From assembly GCF_030499575.1 (NCBI RefSeq), contig NZ_JASTLC010000001.1, positions 6,906,001 through 6,970,000 on the forward strand: a stretch of DNA of 64,000 nucleotides, written 5' to 3'. This DNA is from Streptomyces sp. DG2A-72 (lineage in GTDB: Bacteria; Actinomycetota; Actinomycetes; Streptomycetales; Streptomycetaceae). A program made the position numbers and the translations under genes. Below the pieces are notes generated by a model. The model was given only the letters and a program-made list of their open reading frames with translations, was not told where the DNA came from and ran no database searches. Below, in pieces: positions 44,429 through 54,674 of this stretch; within the stretch, counting starts at the first letter, position 1, and each line of letters opens with the position of its first letter.

Positions 44429-46552
44429 CTATCGCTCGTCCGGCGGCAGTTCCGTGAGGAGATCGACGCCGGTCAGTTCCGCGAGCCGGGCGGCGATCCG
44501 CGTGAGGGGAAGGCGCAGTCGGTCCAGGTCCGCGCGCATCTCGGCGGCGCGTTCCCAGGCGTGCTCATGCGCCGTGGGACTGGCGCCGTCGGGGCGCTTG
44601 GCCTCGTGCTGTTGGAGGGCGGGGTGCCAGGTCGAGAGGAACGGGCGGAGGTGCTCGTTCGCGAGCGCGGCGGCTGTGCGGGGCAGGATGAGCGGTGCCG
44701 CAGTCTCGGTGGCGACCCGGTGGAGGACCTCCCGGGTAGTGGCGAAGAGGGCGTGCAGGGAGGTGAGGGCTTCGCGCAGCGAGCCTTGGTCCGGGGCGAG
44801 CGGCTGGACGCCGACACGGGTGACCAGTTCGACCTGGAGGTCGAAGGCTGCGGCGCGCTCGATGGGCCCCGGACCGCGGTGCTTGGCCGAGGGATCCCGG
44901 AGGGCCTGAGTAGAGGGAAGCGGGGGCCGGGCGGTCGGGGCGGGGACTGCGGCCAGGGCGTGCAGGAGCAGCCGCCGGAGATCCTCCTGGCGGGCGGTGT
45001 CGATGTCATGCCGTCGCACGGCGCGGGCCAGCAACGGGTGGATGGTCCAGGTATGCGACAGGACGGGGTCGGGACGCAGGGCGCCGGAACCGAGAAGGGA
45101 CTCAACGGCTTCTGCCACCAAGGGACAAGCCTCCCAGGGATCGTACGGGGAGACTGCCGCGAGCACGTTCTCCAGGGTGGACTGGTGCAGCGGTGCCGGG
45201 CAGGCCAGAGCGAGCAGACGCAGGACGTCGTCGACCGGGCCGTGCCCGGTCAGCGGGCGGGTGAGGAGGGACGCCGCGAGCCGCCCGCTGGTTCGGTCGC
45301 GGGGCGGCGAACCAGTGAGCACATCGCCACCTGGGGCGTGAAGCCGTTCGCGTGCACGGCCAAAGCCGGTCGACGCCGCAAGGTCGGCGAGTACGTCGAG
45401 TGCGTGTGGATGGCCGCCCACATCGTGGACCAGGGCGAGGGCGGCGTGCTGCTCGGATTCGTCGGCCGGAGTGTGTCGCGAGGTGATCAGGGTGAGGCCG
45501 TCGTCGTCCGGAAGCGGGGCTACGTCGATGGGCTCGGCGAAGGCGGCGTAGTGCAGGGAGCGCGTGGTGATGAGGGTGGCGGCGAGCAGGTGGGGGCCGA
45601 GCAACTGATGGAACTGGGTGTTCGTGAGTCCGTTCGGGACTCCGTCCACGACCCATAGGCAGGGGGCGTTCTGCTCGCCGAGGTGGATGGCGAGTCGGCT
45701 GAGCAGCCGGGAGAGGGACGTGTCCGTCGCATCGATGCCGAGAGCCGCCAATACGGTGGCTACTTGGTCGGCATAGGCGTCCACGGTGCGGGTCACGGCA
45801 CCGAGGTCCTCGGGCTCGTCGGTGTGCAGATCGAACCAGAAGACGCCGCCGGGGAAGGCGGAGCTGAAGCGCAGCGCGTATTCCTGGGCGAGGAGGGACT
45901 TGCCGATGCCAGGCATGCCCCGCAGCTGCGCGGTGCGTCCGCTGCCGGCCTGGGACACGAGCGGTGCCTGGTGGCGGTGCAGGGCGGTGTGGATCTGCCA
46001 CTGTTCGGGGAGCCGGCCGGTGAAGCGGGCCGAGCCCGTGCGCGCGGGAGCGGGCAGCCATGGGACGACGGGGGAGGCGGTGTGGACTCCCATGGGCTCG
46101 GAGAGTCCGGCGACATGGGCGTGAACGCGTGTGGCGAGCCGGTTCGCCTCCTCGGCCTCGGCGCGCCAGGGCCAGTATCGGGCGTCGCGGAGTTCGACCG
46201 GGTGGATGTGCTCGGCGGACGGCTCGGGGTTGACCACGAGGATCCGTCGACGGGGGTCACCCTCTCGCTGGCCTGCCAAGTAGGCGTAGGTGAGTTCCCA
46301 CTGACAAGCACGGCGCTGCGGGTAGTCGGACGAGTACAGGGCCAGCAGCACCTTGGCGCGTGCCAGCGCCGTGGTGATGGTGGTGGTGATCGAGGCGAAG
46401 TCCTCCACGGCGGTGTCGTCGACGAACACCCTCAGCCCCTGGGCACGCAGGGCGACGACCACTGCCTCGGCCTGAGTGGTCGCGGAGCGGCTGTAGCTGA
46501 CGAACACATCCCATTCGGAGGGGGGCCGCTCGGGCGAGGCGCTCACGAGCAC
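44429..46552 (-). CDS. TIR-NB-ARC STAND NTPase with a C-terminal domain shared with its neighbour
   Basis: A 707-aa protein. Residues 13-135 form a TIR domain: WDVFVSYSRSATTQAEAVVV, FVDDTAVEDFASI and RRACQWELTYAYLAG, where Glu86 is the expected NADase catalytic residue. Residues 172-510 form an NB-ARC/AAA-type switch: RGMPGIGKSLLAQEYALRFS (Walker A 212-219), LWVVDGVPNG (Walker B, Asp303), ATLITTRSLHYAAF and a winged-helix-like part to about 530. Residues 566-696 form a helical domain with GSLREALTSLHALF and LRPFLSTWHPALQQHE. The same domain ends the upstream membrane protein. By analogy with bacterial TIR-STAND proteins, ligand binding would trigger oligomerisation and NAD loss. The start is GTG 46552 or 46546; GGGAG precedes both. 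Confidence 0.85.
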   Translation of the reverse strand: MLVSASPERPPSEWDVFVSYSRSATTQAEAVVVALRAQGLRVFVDDTAVEDFASITTTITTALARAKVLLALYSSDYPQRRACQWELTYAYLAGQREGDPRRRILVVNPEPSAEHIHPVELRDARYWPWRAEAEEANRLATRVHAHVAGLSEPMGVHTASPVVPWLPAPARTGSARFTGRLPEQWQIHTALHRHQAPLVSQAGSGRTAQLRGMPGIGKSLLAQEYALRFSSAFPGGVFWFDLHTDEPEDLGAVTRTVDAYADQVATVLAALGIDATDTSLSRLLSRLAIHLGEQNAPCLWVVDGVPNGLTNTQFHQLLGPHLLAATLITTRSLHYAAFAEPIDVAPLPDDDGLTLITSRHTPADESEQHAALALVHDVGGHPHALDVLADLAASTGFGRARERLHAPGGDVLTGSPPRDRTSGRLAASLLTRPLTGHGPVDDVLRLLALACPAPLHQSTLENVLAAVSPYDPWEACPLVAEAVESLLGSGALRPDPVLSHTWTIHPLLARAVRRHDIDTARQEDLRRLLLHALAAVPAPTARPPLPSTQALRDPSAKHRGPGPIERAAAFDLQVELVTRVGVQPLAPDQGSLREALTSLHALFATTREVLHRVATETAAPLILPRTAAALANEHLRPFLSTWHPALQQHEAKRPDGASPTAHEHAWERAAEMRADLDRLRLPLTRIAARLAELTGVDLLTELPPDER

Positions 46553-46728
46553 GGTCTCCCTCGCCTGTCCTCAGTGCGCCCCCGGGCCGTGCACACTCGT
46601 GACGGCATCAGCCTCGAATACAGCGGGGGGGGGGCGTTGAATGCGGGCGACATGAAGGCGCACGACGGCCCTTTCTGCAGCGTCGCACCGGTCGGTCCAG
46701 TAGTGATCACCACCCCATCATCGGTCAT
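46543..46728 (-). CDS. Possible 61-aa ORF filling the gap between the membrane and TIR genes
   Basis: The frame from ATG 46726-46728 to TGA 46543-46545 exactly bridges the gap. It starts 11 nt inside the upstream gene and ends as GTGA over a TIR start codon. It encodes MTDDGVVITTGPTGATLQKG, then Cys/Met/Pro-containing sequence with PPP from a ten-C tract (46625-46634). Composition is not convincingly protein-like and there is no known family. It could instead be a translated leader that couples the two real genes. Confidence 0.25.
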   Translation of the reverse strand: MTDDGVVITTGPTGATLQKGPSCAFMSPAFNAPPPLYSRLMPSRVCTARGRTEDRRGRPCS

Positions 46729-47527
46729 CCGTGTCGTCGGCGGCTGGGGTGGGGTCAGGGCATGTCCCGTCCGTCGTGGCGGGGCGTTGTCCCGGCAAGG
46801 GGTGGGGAGGGCTGGATGGCGGCTTGTCCGAGCGGCGAGCCGACGGGCGCAGGTGGCGCTCGGGATCGCGTAGTCCCGCGATCTCGCCGAGGGCCACGAA
46901 GTAGGGGCGCAGGTTCTGTTGCAGGGTCTGCAGCTCCTGGCGGAAGGCGGCGTTGTCCGGCCATGCGGACTCGTCCAGGTCTGGGTGTGCCTGCTCGAAG
47001 GCCTGGAGCCGTGGGTGCCACTTGGACAGAAAGGGAGCCAGCTCGAAGTTGAGGATGTCCAGGATCAGTTCGTGCACCGAGTCGCCATGGGACGGAGGGG
47101 GCGGTGCCTCCCCCGATTCCAGGGGCTCCCGATACAGGTCGAACAGCGTCTTGAGTGACGTGAGCGCCTCGCGTAGATTGCCGCTGCCGTCCTCCAGCGG
47201 TCGGGTGGCGATGCGGGTCGAGGCCTGGAAGAACATCCGTTGGGCGGCCTGGCGCATATCGGTGTTCGCCTTGAACGTCATTTCGCTGCCGGGCAGGACG
47301 AGGCGGACTTCGGTCAACTGCACGGAGCGGCGGTAGAGGTCGCCACCGAGAGCGGCGGCGACGCCAAGCAGGCCTCCGACCACCACGGACAGGCTCTGCC
47401 CGCCCGTCTGGCTGAGCGAGTAGGCGACAATGCCGGCGACAGCGCCGAGCACCCCCGCCAACACCGCCCGTGCAACTGCCCGCAGCACCGTTCGCGTCCG
47501 CACCGACGCGGTCCCGCCGTCCGTCAT
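46718..47527 (-). CDS. Two-TM membrane protein sharing the C-terminal domain of the TIR-STAND protein
   Basis: A 269-aa protein: two membrane segments (about 14-38 and 46-65), then a cytoplasmic helical domain (92-220) and a Pro-rich charged tail. The domain reads QAAQRMFFQASTRIATRPLE, GNLREALTSLKTLFDLYREP, NFELAPFLSKWHPRLQAFEQ, LQQNLRPYFVALGEIAGL. This aligns by eye with residues 566-696 of the TIR protein (GSLREALTSLHALF, LRPFLSTWHPALQQHE). The shared domain suggests hetero-association at the membrane, with this protein as anchor, inhibitor or pore-type partner. The ATG at 47525-47527 has GGGAGGGG 4-5 nt upstream. It is the first gene of the pair. Confidence 0.75.
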   Translation of the reverse strand: MTDGGTASVRTRTVLRAVARAVLAGVLGAVAGIVAYSLSQTGGQSLSVVVGGLLGVAAALGGDLYRRSVQLTEVRLVLPGSEMTFKANTDMRQAAQRMFFQASTRIATRPLEDGSGNLREALTSLKTLFDLYREPLESGEAPPPPSHGDSVHELILDILNFELAPFLSKWHPRLQAFEQAHPDLDESAWPDNAAFRQELQTLQQNLRPYFVALGEIAGLRDPERHLRPSARRSDKPPSSPPHPLPGQRPATTDGTCPDPTPAADDTDDR

Positions 47528-51379: not shown

Positions 51380-51605
51380 GCACTCCTCCGAATCGAGCCC
51401 CATGCCCCGTCCATCGCTGGACGGCTCCCCAAGGGCTCGTAACATCGAGTTCAGCGGCTGGCGCATTGTTGCCCGTGCATATCAGCTGGGCAGACAAGGC
51501 ACCGGACACGCCGGCCCGTACTGCCCTGTCCCCCTCCGTGGGTGTTGCGTCAACCACTGTGCGGCGACAGCCTTCGAAGAACCTGCGGGAACTCTTGAAT
51601 CGGGC

Positions 51606-51635
51606 TTGAATGGCCTGGTCAGCGACATGTATACC
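51606..51635 (+). promoter_or_regulatory. Candidate promoter of the SARP gene
   Basis: TTGAAT (51606-51611) and TATACC (51630-51635) are 18 nt apart, close to the consensus for the main sigma factor. Transcription would begin near 51642, just before the ATG at 51651. Confidence 0.45.
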
Positions 51636-51650
51636 AAGGATGGCGTGGTC

Positions 51651-54600
51651 ATGGCTGGGGGGTATGTGCGGTTCGGCGTTCTCGGAGTCATCGAGGCATG
51701 GCAGGGCACGGCGCTGGTGGACTTAGGGCATGCCCGGCAGCGGCAGGTTCTGGCTGCGCTGCTCGTGGATGTCGGCCGGGCGGTGCCGGCGGACGCGTTG
51801 ATGGAGCGGGTGTGGGGTGAGCGGGTGCCGCAGCGCGGCCGGGTGACGCTGTACGGATATCTGTCCCGGCTCCGTCAGGCGTTGTCGGGGGCGGAGATCA
51901 CGCGGGAGCAGGGCGGTTACCGGCTTGCGGTGGACGCGGAGGCGGTGGATCTGCACTGGTTCCGTCGCCTGTCGAGTCAGGCCCGGGAGGCGGATACGGA
52001 TGAGCGTGCGGTGGCTTTGTGGCAGGAAGCGCTGGGGCTGTGGCGCGGTGATGCCTTCGTCGGCCTCGACACCGCCTGGTTCAATGCCCAGCGTGCCCGG
52101 CTGGAGGCAGAGCGGCTGGCCGCGCAGCTGGAACTGGTGGAGGCACGGCTGCGGCTTGGGCAGCACGCCCAGATCCTCGCGGAGTGCTCGACGCGAGCGG
52201 AGGTGTTTCCGCTCGATGAACGGGTGGCCGGACAGCTAATGCTCGCCCTGTACCGGAGCGGGCGGCAAGCCGAGGCGTTGCGGCATTACGACGTCATCCG
52301 GCGAAGGCTGGGGGACGAGCTGGGCTGTGACCCAGGACTGGCTCTTCGGCAGCTGCACCAGCAGATCATCGCTGCGGACCCGGCTGTCAGTCCGAACGGT
52401 TCAACACCCGAGGGAGCCGGCCCCGGATTGACGCAGAGTCCCCTACAGCCTCTGCAACCGCTGAGATCCAAGGCTACGGATGGCCAACAGGCCGAGCAGG
52501 CTGCGGCTTCCATCCGTATCGTCACTCCTGGCATCCCAGCACGAAGCCCGGCCGCCGCGTTGGGGCGTAACTGTCTTCCTCGTGGCCTGCCGGATTTCAC
52601 CGGGCGGGAGGAGGAGCTTGCCCAGCTGGTGGCGTCAGCCCAGAACGGGGCGGCTGTCCACGCAGTTGACGGGATGGCCGGGGTCGGTAAGACCTCACTC
52701 GCCGTCCAGGCCGGGCAGCTGCTCGCCGACCGGTTTCCGGACGGTGCGCTCTTCGTCGATCTGCAAGGCCACAGCCTGGGCAAGACACCGCTGACTCCCG
52801 ACGAAGCCCTGGAGACGCTGCTGGGCCAGCTCGGGGTAACGGCGCCCAGCGACGCACAGGCACGGTGGCGGGCGGCGACCGCTGCCTCGCGGCTCCTGGT
52901 CATCCTGGACAACGCCGTGGACGAAACGCAGGTGGCCCCGCTGCTGCCGGCCGGTCCCAGCCTCGTGATCGTGACCAGTCGGGCCAGGATGCCGGCCCTC
53001 GCGGGGGCACAACCCCTGTCTTTGGGGGTACTGACGCAGGCTGCGGCCACAACGTTCTTCGCTCGCATTGTCGGGACTGATCGGGCGGCGGCCGAGCCGG
53101 AGGCAGTGGCACGCATCGTCCGGTTGTGCGCGGGGCTGCCGTTGGCGCTGCGGCTGTCCGGGGCCCGGCTCGCACACCGTACCGCCTGGCCGGTGGCCCA
53201 TCTGTCGGCACAGCTGGCCAGCGCCCGGCGGCAGCTGCCAAAGCTGTTCGCCGACCAGGAAGTGGCGCTGGCGTTCCGCATGTCTCACGAACAGCTCTCG
53301 CCCGTCGACCAGCAGGTGTTCTGTGCTCTGGGGCGGCATCCCGGTACTGACGCAGACGCCGCTGTCATCGCGGTGATGACCGGCATGCCGGTTGCCGCGG
53401 CTGACGACGCGCTGCAGAGGCTGGTCGATGTTCATCTGGCCGAGGAGGCCGCCGTCGGTCGCTACCGCCAGCATGACCTGCTGCGCCAGTACGCCCGGGG
53501 CCTGTCCGACGACCCGCTGGTAACCGAGCGCATGCTCATCCACTACCTAAAGGCAGTGACGGAGGCGGCAGCACATCTTGCGGATGGGGGAACCCAGGCT
53601 GACGCAGCGCAGACCTGGTTGATGACGGAGCAGAGCAATCTCCTCGCCGCGACCAGGTGCGCCGCCGCAGAGGGGCACACCGATTACGCCTGGCAGCTCG
53701 CCATCTCCATGTGGCATTTTCTGTCCCAGAACCTTGCCGGCGATCCGATCGAACTACTCGAGAAGGGCCTGTCCGCAGCACAGGACGCAGCCGACGGCGG
53801 CGAAACGATGCTCAACACACTCCTGGCACTGGCCCACTGGTCGGCCGGCCACCCCGCCGTCGCCTACAACCTGCTGAGCACCTCCGCGGAACAGCTCGAG
53901 AACACCGAATCCCACGCACACACACTGGCCCTGCTCGGACTGATGCTCCTTCAGCGAGGCGACCACGCAGCGGCCTACGACCACGCGGAGCGGGCATTCA
54001 CCGAACTCGCCCAGCTTCCCACTCTGTCCCCCCTGGGACTCGACGCGAAGATCATCACATACTGGACCCGCGGCACCGTCCGAGGACTACGGAGCGAGCA
54101 CGAGGCGGCCCTTTCCTACCTGCGGGCCGCCTACACCGGCTGCCAAGAACTCAGTCAGCTCAGCCCCAACGACCATGTACTGACGGCCCTGTCCCGGTGC
54201 CTGATCGCTCTCGGCACCCACCACGAGGCCCTCAGCCACCTTCAGCAAGCCCGCGACCTGCGGCAGCGGATCGGCGACAAAGAAGGCGAAGCCGAGACAC
54301 TCGTCCTCATCGGCACAGCACAGCGGACTTCAGGACACCCCCAGGAAGCACTAACACCACAACGCCTGGCGGTAACCATGCTCGACAACGACACCCGGCT
54401 CCAGGCATACGCCAGAATCGAACTCGGCCACACCCTGTATGCGCTGGGGCAGGCAGATGAGGCACTCCAGCAGCACACGCTCGCTCTCACCCTTGCCCGA
54501 CAAGGCCGCCATCTCCACGAAGAAGCTCAAGCGCACCACGCCCTCGCGCGGTTGCTCGCTGCAATCCACCCGCAGACAGCCCAGCAGCACGAGGAAACCG

Positions 54601-54674
54601 CAGCACAGATATCCACCCAGCTGGACCTCCGCCACCCGACCCCACTGCCACACCTGCGCCCCGCCGGATGGTGA
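51651..54674 (+). CDS. AfsR-like SARP regulator with NB-ARC and TPR domains
   Basis: A 1007-aa protein. Residues 5-95 form an OmpR-type winged helix (VRFGVLGVIEAWQGTALVDL, GRVTLYGYLSRLRQALSGAE). Residues 100-245 form the bacterial transcriptional activation domain (WQEALGLWRGDAFVGLDTAW, RSGRQAEALRHYDVIRRRLG). Next is an NB-ARC ATPase with Walker A GMAGVGKTSLA near residue 341, Walker B RLLVILDNAVDE near 415 and ATP-sensing VTSRARM. The C-terminal third is TPR repeats (YLRAAYTGCQELSQLSPNDH, ALGTHHEALSHLQQARDLRQ, LGQADEALQQHTLALTLARQ). Family members activate secondary-metabolite or peptide gene clusters. ATG 51651 fits the promoter; 51627 is an alternative start. It is divergent from the small peptide genes. 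Confidence 0.92.
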   Translation: MAGGYVRFGVLGVIEAWQGTALVDLGHARQRQVLAALLVDVGRAVPADALMERVWGERVPQRGRVTLYGYLSRLRQALSGAEITREQGGYRLAVDAEAVDLHWFRRLSSQAREADTDERAVALWQEALGLWRGDAFVGLDTAWFNAQRARLEAERLAAQLELVEARLRLGQHAQILAECSTRAEVFPLDERVAGQLMLALYRSGRQAEALRHYDVIRRRLGDELGCDPGLALRQLHQQIIAADPAVSPNGSTPEGAGPGLTQSPLQPLQPLRSKATDGQQAEQAAASIRIVTPGIPARSPAAALGRNCLPRGLPDFTGREEELAQLVASAQNGAAVHAVDGMAGVGKTSLAVQAGQLLADRFPDGALFVDLQGHSLGKTPLTPDEALETLLGQLGVTAPSDAQARWRAATAASRLLVILDNAVDETQVAPLLPAGPSLVIVTSRARMPALAGAQPLSLGVLTQAAATTFFARIVGTDRAAAEPEAVARIVRLCAGLPLALRLSGARLAHRTAWPVAHLSAQLASARRQLPKLFADQEVALAFRMSHEQLSPVDQQVFCALGRHPGTDADAAVIAVMTGMPVAAADDALQRLVDVHLAEEAAVGRYRQHDLLRQYARGLSDDPLVTERMLIHYLKAVTEAAAHLADGGTQADAAQTWLMTEQSNLLAATRCAAAEGHTDYAWQLAISMWHFLSQNLAGDPIELLEKGLSAAQDAADGGETMLNTLLALAHWSAGHPAVAYNLLSTSAEQLENTESHAHTLALLGLMLLQRGDHAAAYDHAERAFTELAQLPTLSPLGLDAKIITYWTRGTVRGLRSEHEAALSYLRAAYTGCQELSQLSPNDHVLTALSRCLIALGTHHEALSHLQQARDLRQRIGDKEGEAETLVLIGTAQRTSGHPQEALTPQRLAVTMLDNDTRLQAYARIELGHTLYALGQADEALQQHTLALTLARQGRHLHEEAQAHHALARLLAAIHPQTAQQHEETAAQISTQLDLRHPTPLPHLRPAGW

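Follow-up and report, generated by a model that had tools for sequence, protein, structure and literature searches.

How a TIR protein is coupled to the rest of its pathway is the question raised by two adjacent genes of Streptomyces sp. DG2A-72. TIR proteins have a central place in the immunity of bacteria, plants, and animals; to our knowledge, little has been described of how a bacterial TIR that carries a STAND, WD40, or TPR sensor is connected to a response. On the minus strand of the window (the whole stretch of 64,000 nucleotides that was analyzed), a gene for a membrane protein, 2TM-X (46718..47527; 269 aa, start codon uncertain), comes first and, after a 165-bp gap (46553..46717) between the two same-strand genes, is followed by a gene for a TIR-STAND protein, TIR-STAND-X (44429..46552; 707 aa, GTG start). 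Both genes lie at the coordinates given by an earlier sequence-only reading, which had proposed that the two proteins share a C-terminal domain, here called X, and that this domain lets them bind or compete for the same partner. Our results point to X as a partner that bacterial TIR proteins regularly have and that has so far been overlooked, with no family model in the libraries searched; X is not private to the window pair, and it is best read as more than a connection between the two proteins encoded there.

Do the two proteins indeed share a domain? Residues 566-696 of TIR-STAND-X (44465..44857, minus strand) and residues 92-219 of 2TM-X are homologous, with 36% identity and an E-value of 1e-13 in BLASTP; the partner copy as a whole spans residues 92-220 (46868..47254, minus strand). 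phmmer matched the TIR-fused X to the partner X at 1.6e-15, and the local alignment score of the two window copies was 159 against a shuffle maximum of 74 (0 of 1000 shuffles were as good). The sequence-only reading had called for a comparison of profiles, and hhalign of two 10-row family profiles, one of TIR-fused and one of partner X, gave a significant match (probability 98.9, E 1e-17, 128 columns). The shuffles and the profile-profile comparison rule out chance similarity, and the claim that both proteins carry the same C-terminal domain stands. The only two copies of X that a profile search found in this 10.58-Mb genome are those of the window pair.

The other parts of both proteins are of an immune kind, as had been read from the sequence. 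The TIR domain (residues 14-150; 46103..46513, minus strand) matches Pfam TIR_2 at 2e-15 (57.8 bits against a cut-off of 28), and Glu86 of its WEL motif, which we take to be the catalytic NADase Glu, is invariant in 17/17 aligned close homologues. The STAND/NB-ARC-like ATPase with the helical region that follows it (residues ∼170-540; 44933..46045, minus strand) matches AAA_22 (20.6 vs. 27 bits, E 6e-4) and NB-ARC (16.8 vs. 23.5 bits, E 0.004) under the Pfam cut-offs and NCBIfam FxSxx_TPR at 3e-15, far under its cut-off. Here, G212, G215, G217, K218, and S219 and also, D303, presumably Walker A and Walker B residues, respectively, are invariant in the same 17 homologues; the earlier statement that the TIR keeps its WEL Glu and the STAND domain its Walker-type residues thus extends to all of them. 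Among TIRs of X loci at large, 78 of 82 rows in the alignment have the WEL-type Glu (near-duplicates counted). The two transmembrane (TM) helices predicted earlier for 2TM-X, whose nearest named relative is 91% identical, are backed by hydropathy and by a hairpin conserved in relatives. The hairpin (residues ∼15-65; 47333..47485, minus strand) has GxxxG-type spacing and a short TGGQ loop, and both of its flanks, presumed cytosolic, carry basic residues.

Is the pairing itself conserved? A scan for 2TM-X in one genome per species found 19 loci, 18 in Streptomyces and 1 in a Chloroflexi assembly. In 18/18 Streptomyces loci, 2TM-X is followed on its own strand by a TIR-STAND frame, at a distance of 4-209 bp in 17 of them and of ∼960 bp in L020 (the frame is cut by a contig end in L011, so that its X is not visible, and L021 is frameshifted). 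Starting from the other gene, an X partner adjoins TIR-STAND-X in 14/16 Streptomyces loci found by profile, a set made up of 14 loci from the Streptomyces survey plus 2 from the class-wide survey, with broken frames in G153 and G183. These counts make the two genes a conserved pair, and they answer the concern, raised together with the original proposal, that homologues of the two might rarely be neighbors: they are regularly adjacent. Three of the pairs have an extra TIR match upstream (L009:4087-4911, L010:4982-5797, and L004:3986-4753).

How far does X extend beyond this pair? We surveyed genomes with one profile built from 2TM-X and TIR-X (A1) and another built also from the first survey (A2). 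X was found in 31/246 Streptomyces genomes (own genome and fragments counted) and in 6/345 genomes of the class, of which one is the own genome, one was already known, and one gave a spurious short match. In genomes from the phylum as a whole, 3/396 had a match, the own genome and a spurious case being two of the three. For the phylum to which the Chloroflexi assembly belongs, the count, with the assembly itself, was 8/301. The match in G459 and the 24-residue match in G810 were judged spurious as X. Another 11 distinct plasmid records, from Streptomyces, Calothrix, Photobacterium, Vibrio, Ruegeria, Rhizobium, Sinorhizobium, and Mesorhizobium, carry X, although the Streptomyces cynarae record is apparently the G234 contig, one locus thus being counted twice. 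X therefore spans four phyla: Actinomycetota, Chloroflexota, Cyanobacteria, and Pseudomonadota. Four IMG/VR scans yielded one X-bearing contig, and 50,697 phage records yielded no match; on these counts, we rejected X as a common phage cargo.

No family library searched held a convincing match to X. The best Pfam matches were weak, with E-values between 0.011 and 0.36, and each arose in one member only; no effector-associated domain (EAD), macro, or SLOG model matched X in the Pfam scans. For the part of the X set scanned against them, NCBIfam gave weak matches to SLATT_5, PspM, and unrelated models far below cut-offs, and PADLOC and PHROGs gave nothing convincing; the best match among PDB sequences had an E of 0.56. 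On these searches, we rejected X as a member of a known family. We found no account of X in the open-access literature as far as its accessible text goes, including PMC7159879, PMC8195603, PMC9122126, and PMC11204291, with subscription papers mostly outside this scope.

What these scattered copies have in common is a TIR gene nearby. A TIR lies beside X in 19/19 loci of the one-genome-per-species scan, 18 of them with TIR-STAND. Among full-length Streptomyces X that are unfused and have no other X next to them, the fetched region holds a TIR gene in 13/17 (fragments in G152, G231, and G240:C14 were excluded from this count and from the 14/16 above). Of the 12 unfused X loci that could be set against TIR_2 counts, 11 lie ≤5 kb from a TIR_2 match (10 of them ≤3 kb), where 0.086 would be expected from the 125 TIR_2 matches in 188 Mb of 22 Streptomyces genomes (P ∼7e-24, under a uniform null that ignores relatedness and the clustering of defense islands). 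These 22 are among the 31 X-bearing Streptomyces genomes, G001, G063, G119, G142, G152, G166, G183, G207, and G231 being omitted. By hand count, ∼25 of the 125 TIR_2 matches in these genomes, which were picked for having X, lie ≤5 kb from X. This is a statistical association in which several of the sampled loci are near relatives, and other defense genes were not counted as controls.

The last point leaves room for X as a general marker of defense islands that sits close to TIR genes by hitch-hiking, which would also suit the several TIR genes or mobile elements seen at some X loci. We consider this highly improbable. In G060, G241, G234, and G1013, the sole TIR_2 match of the genome is at the X locus (the TIR carries X in G060 and G241 but not in G234), and elsewhere X and TIR open frames overlap or are directly fused. 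The Calothrix plasmid (L099) has, inside 12 kb, two genes for X along with four TIR-matching open frames.

The association holds outside Streptomyces and across TIR architectures. In Chloroflexota, a TIR gene over the Pfam cut-off lies within ∼1.5 kb of X in 7/7 loci with sequence on both sides (TIR_2 in L022, L126, and L127; ThsB_TIR in L128-L131), and its open frame overlaps that of X in L127-L131; L022 is counted here as well as in the 19-locus scan, and an eighth locus, G1204, sits at a contig end and was excluded as unjudgeable. TIR genes were found at 7 of the 8 plasmid X loci opened, from the 11 records, and at the 1/1 IMG/VR locus; on the Streptomyces longwoodensis plasmid, an IS5 transposase gene lies between X and TIR. 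The other domains of the neighboring TIR proteins vary: NB-ARC-TPR, WD40, SEFIR-like, EAD7-like, or a lone ThsB-like TIR. Pfam identifies TIR with a WD40-type propeller beside X in L066, L067, L070, L071, L072, L073, and L084, TIR with NB-ARC and TPR in L064 and L068, and TIR/SEFIR in L074; in L090, where the frame is cut off, the TIR is joined by no more than a weak match to a propeller, the EAD7 match on the Chloroflexi TIR protein is under cut-off (20.3 of 32 bits), and further types were placed by similarity only. A lone ThsB-like TIR adjoins X in four Chloroflexota loci, in the actinobacterial L078, and in Vibrio. In the loci scanned, none of these TIR proteins of other types had an X match.

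X thus partners many TIR proteins that carry no detectable X, so that the common denominator is the TIR domain, and since a TIR is common to most X neighborhoods, it is most likely the TIR domain, or the product of that domain, with which X works. The sequence-only proposal accordingly survives in part: the homology of the shared domain is upheld, and binding or competing for one partner as a general rule is not, as X adjoins many X-less TIRs. With roughly even confidence, we favor X as a TIR-partner domain, a TIR-coupled adaptor or sensor that links the event in the TIR-STAND protein to a membrane partner. The STAND ATPase would, by analogy with its family, sense an invader cue and oligomerize, whereupon the TIR domains, their Glu being kept, would act on NAD+. 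X would couple this event to the partner, and 2TM-X, membrane-held with X in the cytosol, might gather at the TIR assembly, with the outcome either that the membrane is damaged or that the response is anchored to it.

Several observations weigh against such a role. TIR-STAND-X has no X partner next door in 2/16 loci, G233:C1 and G873 (transposase-like frames, recognized by eye, lie just upstream in the latter). Four of the 17 full-length Streptomyces X (G063, G166, G207, and G233:C2), three X fragments, and the X of the Ruegeria plasmid have no TIR nearby. Of the 88 X sequences in our tree, 26 (one a frameshifted 2TM-X) are soluble stand-alone proteins, labeled as such by a hydropathy threshold, with no visible effector; for this reason, soluble X is not itself a membrane effector. 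The opened E. coli TIR-NLR locus (1 of 26 genomes with a match) has no X within 10 kb, and as a TIR-NLR of P4-like satellites protects E. coli (PMC9122126), X seems dispensable there and would be at most accessory for TIR-NLR. Finally, no X was found near the X-less TIR-STAND relatives that are ∼35% identical over ∼residues 13-412 and occur on plasmids of Skermanella (L132:4998-7586) and Azospirillum (L133:4995-7088, annotated as a TPR protein).

Some X loci that lack a TIR neighbor have other company. G233, whose partnerless TIR-STAND-X (G233:C1) lies elsewhere in the genome, has a diverged 2TM-X with no TIR neighbor (L077:5030-5854), 2TM-X in L085 and L086 stands beside an ATPase-like gene (by eye), and X in L075:5249-5776 stands beside TniB/Mu-transposase-like sequence.

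If X acts with the TIR or its product, which of the two is it? Its conserved residues bear on this. With 96 of 101 sequences kept (identical and <110-residue rows dropped; 2TM-X numbering), eight residues are near-invariant across four phyla, seven polar (three of them Arg) and one Trp: R105 (95/96), S124 (96/96), R133 (94/96), N160 (90/95), W170 (96/96), H171 (95/96), E178 (93/94), and R196 (92/96). The fold is probably mostly helical, and in our judgment, this polar conservation exceeds the need of a pure packing domain. The residues would fit a binding site, perhaps for an anionic ligand, and could equally form a TIR-binding surface.

A ligand would suit a Thoeris-like scheme, in which the TIR makes an NAD-derived molecule, X binds it, and 2TM-X or X-patatin damages the membrane. 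The plan is that of TM-macro ThsA, a TM part and a nucleotide-binding domain beside TIR genes (PMC11204291). X is joined to membrane-type effectors, a TM hairpin in 30/88 tree rows (the 2TM label, like the soluble one, being set by the hydropathy threshold) and a TM-patatin in 3/88; a loose, permissive GxxxG pattern occurs in 31/32 hairpin rows, and the basic flanks suggest an N-in, C-in topology. The scheme also gains from the near-invariant residues, from the lone ThsB-like TIRs that adjoin X, and from NUDIX hydrolase genes near X in one Chloroflexi locus (L022:5400-5954) and three Streptomyces loci (L105:6589-7128, L073:6193-6759, and L082:3279-4409, where X is only a fragment; Pfam matches are shown for L022 and L105). 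NUDIX is a possible third component that would act on ADP-ribose-type nucleotides. Against the scheme stand the 26 soluble rows without a visible effector, the failure of any macro or SLOG model to match X, and the consequence that TIR-STAND-X would sense its own product. We regard it as possible but doubtful.

We put forward only tentatively a more specific form, in which the NAD-derived signal that the TIR makes is received by X as a new receptor class that has no relation to SLOG or macro domains and is used in at least four phyla. If true, X would fire membrane effectors in 2TM-X and X-patatin, lone X (∼160-240 aa) would act as a relay, and X fused to TIR-STAND would give feedback; the window pair would then amount to a Thoeris-like pathway that is gated by STAND and has a receptor class of its own. 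The patatin-like proteins, with N-terminal X and hydrophobic segments, are encoded on three rhizobial plasmids (L102:5818-8565, L103:5833-8514, and L104:5872-8460; Pfam Patatin is shown for L104), where they are surrounded by TIR genes, ThsB-like where scanned.

Alternatively, X might bind X. In an EAD-like homotypic adaptor, X of the STAND protein would bind X of the 2TM protein and thereby recruit a second effector. The occurrence of one domain in adjacent STAND and 2TM genes and the X partner at 14/16 TIR-STAND-X loci would be expected from this, and they match the published EAD pattern (PMC7159879). The phylogeny of the 88 sequences, in which some branches are long and the deep joins uncertain, speaks otherwise. 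TIR-fused X forms one clade (100/100) apart from all partner X, and the partner X sequences cluster together, also the ones next to TIR-WD40 and TIR-NB-ARC-TPR; the two X copies of one locus are therefore old relatives, not recent duplicates. Adjacent X copies are not mutual closest relatives, as adjacent EAD copies tend to be according to the same source, other TIR neighbors of X gave no X match, and no EAD model matched X. We think homotypic binding rather unlikely. Within the TIR-fused clade, a nine-row subclade (100/99) pairs with soluble, divergently transcribed X, and the remaining 20 rows, a weak grouping (81/68), pair mostly with 2TM-X; from this grouping, TIR-STAND-X lineages use different partner types, membrane-bound or soluble.

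Could X instead restrain the TIR? As a brake or immunity domain, X would hold the TIR inactive until infection, and 2TM-X would keep it at the membrane. An X open frame can directly precede and overlap that of a lone TIR gene, and X occurs in cis on the TIR protein, both of which would be in keeping with a brake. Yet X and TIR do not keep to one gene order (either may come first, and divergent pairs are seen as well), fusion to patatin would be odd for a brake, and the opened E. coli TIR-NLR locus does without X; we judge a brake improbable. A toxin-antitoxin order of X and TIR was dismissed on the same mixed gene order.

X has a use beyond this locus. Found with TIR genes of several phyla and several sensor types, this one small domain offers a handle on how TIRs are coupled, predicts a physical or chemical partner for TIR pathways, and lets unannotated “hypothetical proteins” be assigned to them.

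Two further features of the window can be added. An N-terminal element of partner-type X, around LTEVRLVLPGSEMTF (47270..47320, minus strand, from the alignment), is possibly strand-forming; it is conserved in partner-type X (window 46868-47320) and not kept in TIR-fused X (44465-44857). By eye, a long open reading frame at 51402-54674 looks like a BTAD/SARP-type regulator and contains NB-ARC-like regions as well as repeats.

How does the pair compare with known systems? The TIR-NLR of P4-like satellites, defensive in E. coli (Rousset et al. 2022, PMC9122126), is likewise a TIR-STAND-type protein. A Photobacterium homologue (PADLOC TIR-NLR, E 9e-277) starts 14 bp after an X gene, whereas its relative in the opened E. 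coli locus, a full-length PADLOC TIR-NLR match, has no X; the window protein differs in having no PADLOC TIR-NLR match, in ending in X, and in having a membrane partner. The TPR protein of the FxSxx-COOH system (NCBIfam NF040586) matches the STAND region weakly (55.6 bits vs. a cut-off of 300). Of the CBASS proteins SAVED-TIR and SAVED-TM, only the TIR and TM parts match the window pair in PADLOC (30.4 and 13 bits), and Pfam finds no SAVED in it.

EADs and Thoeris come closer. EADs are small domains copied in neighboring genes, one for a switch protein and one for an effector-like protein (Kaur et al. 2020, PMC7159879), and X shares this feature: the switch protein has one copy, and the effector-type protein encoded next to it has another. 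It differs in having no EAD profile match, in that adjacent copies are not closest relatives and most unfused TIR neighbors have no X, and in its strongly conserved polar residues. In TM-macro Thoeris, nucleotide binding makes the macro domain oligomerize and the TM parts cluster, as PMC11204291 describes. There too, the TIR gene has a neighbor whose product combines TM helices with a cytosolic domain, and in some lineages, the TIRs that adjoin X are ThsB-like. In contrast, the ThsB models match the window TIR no more than weakly (PADLOC 16.5 bits; Pfam 11.9 bits vs. a cut-off of 21.2), Pfam, PADLOC, and NCBIfam scans find no SLOG or macro domain in 2TM-X, the TIR is fused to STAND here and to WD40 or TPR elsewhere, and X is sometimes soluble or on the TIR protein itself. 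Among described systems, TM-macro Thoeris comes nearest in plan and the EAD rule nearest in principle.

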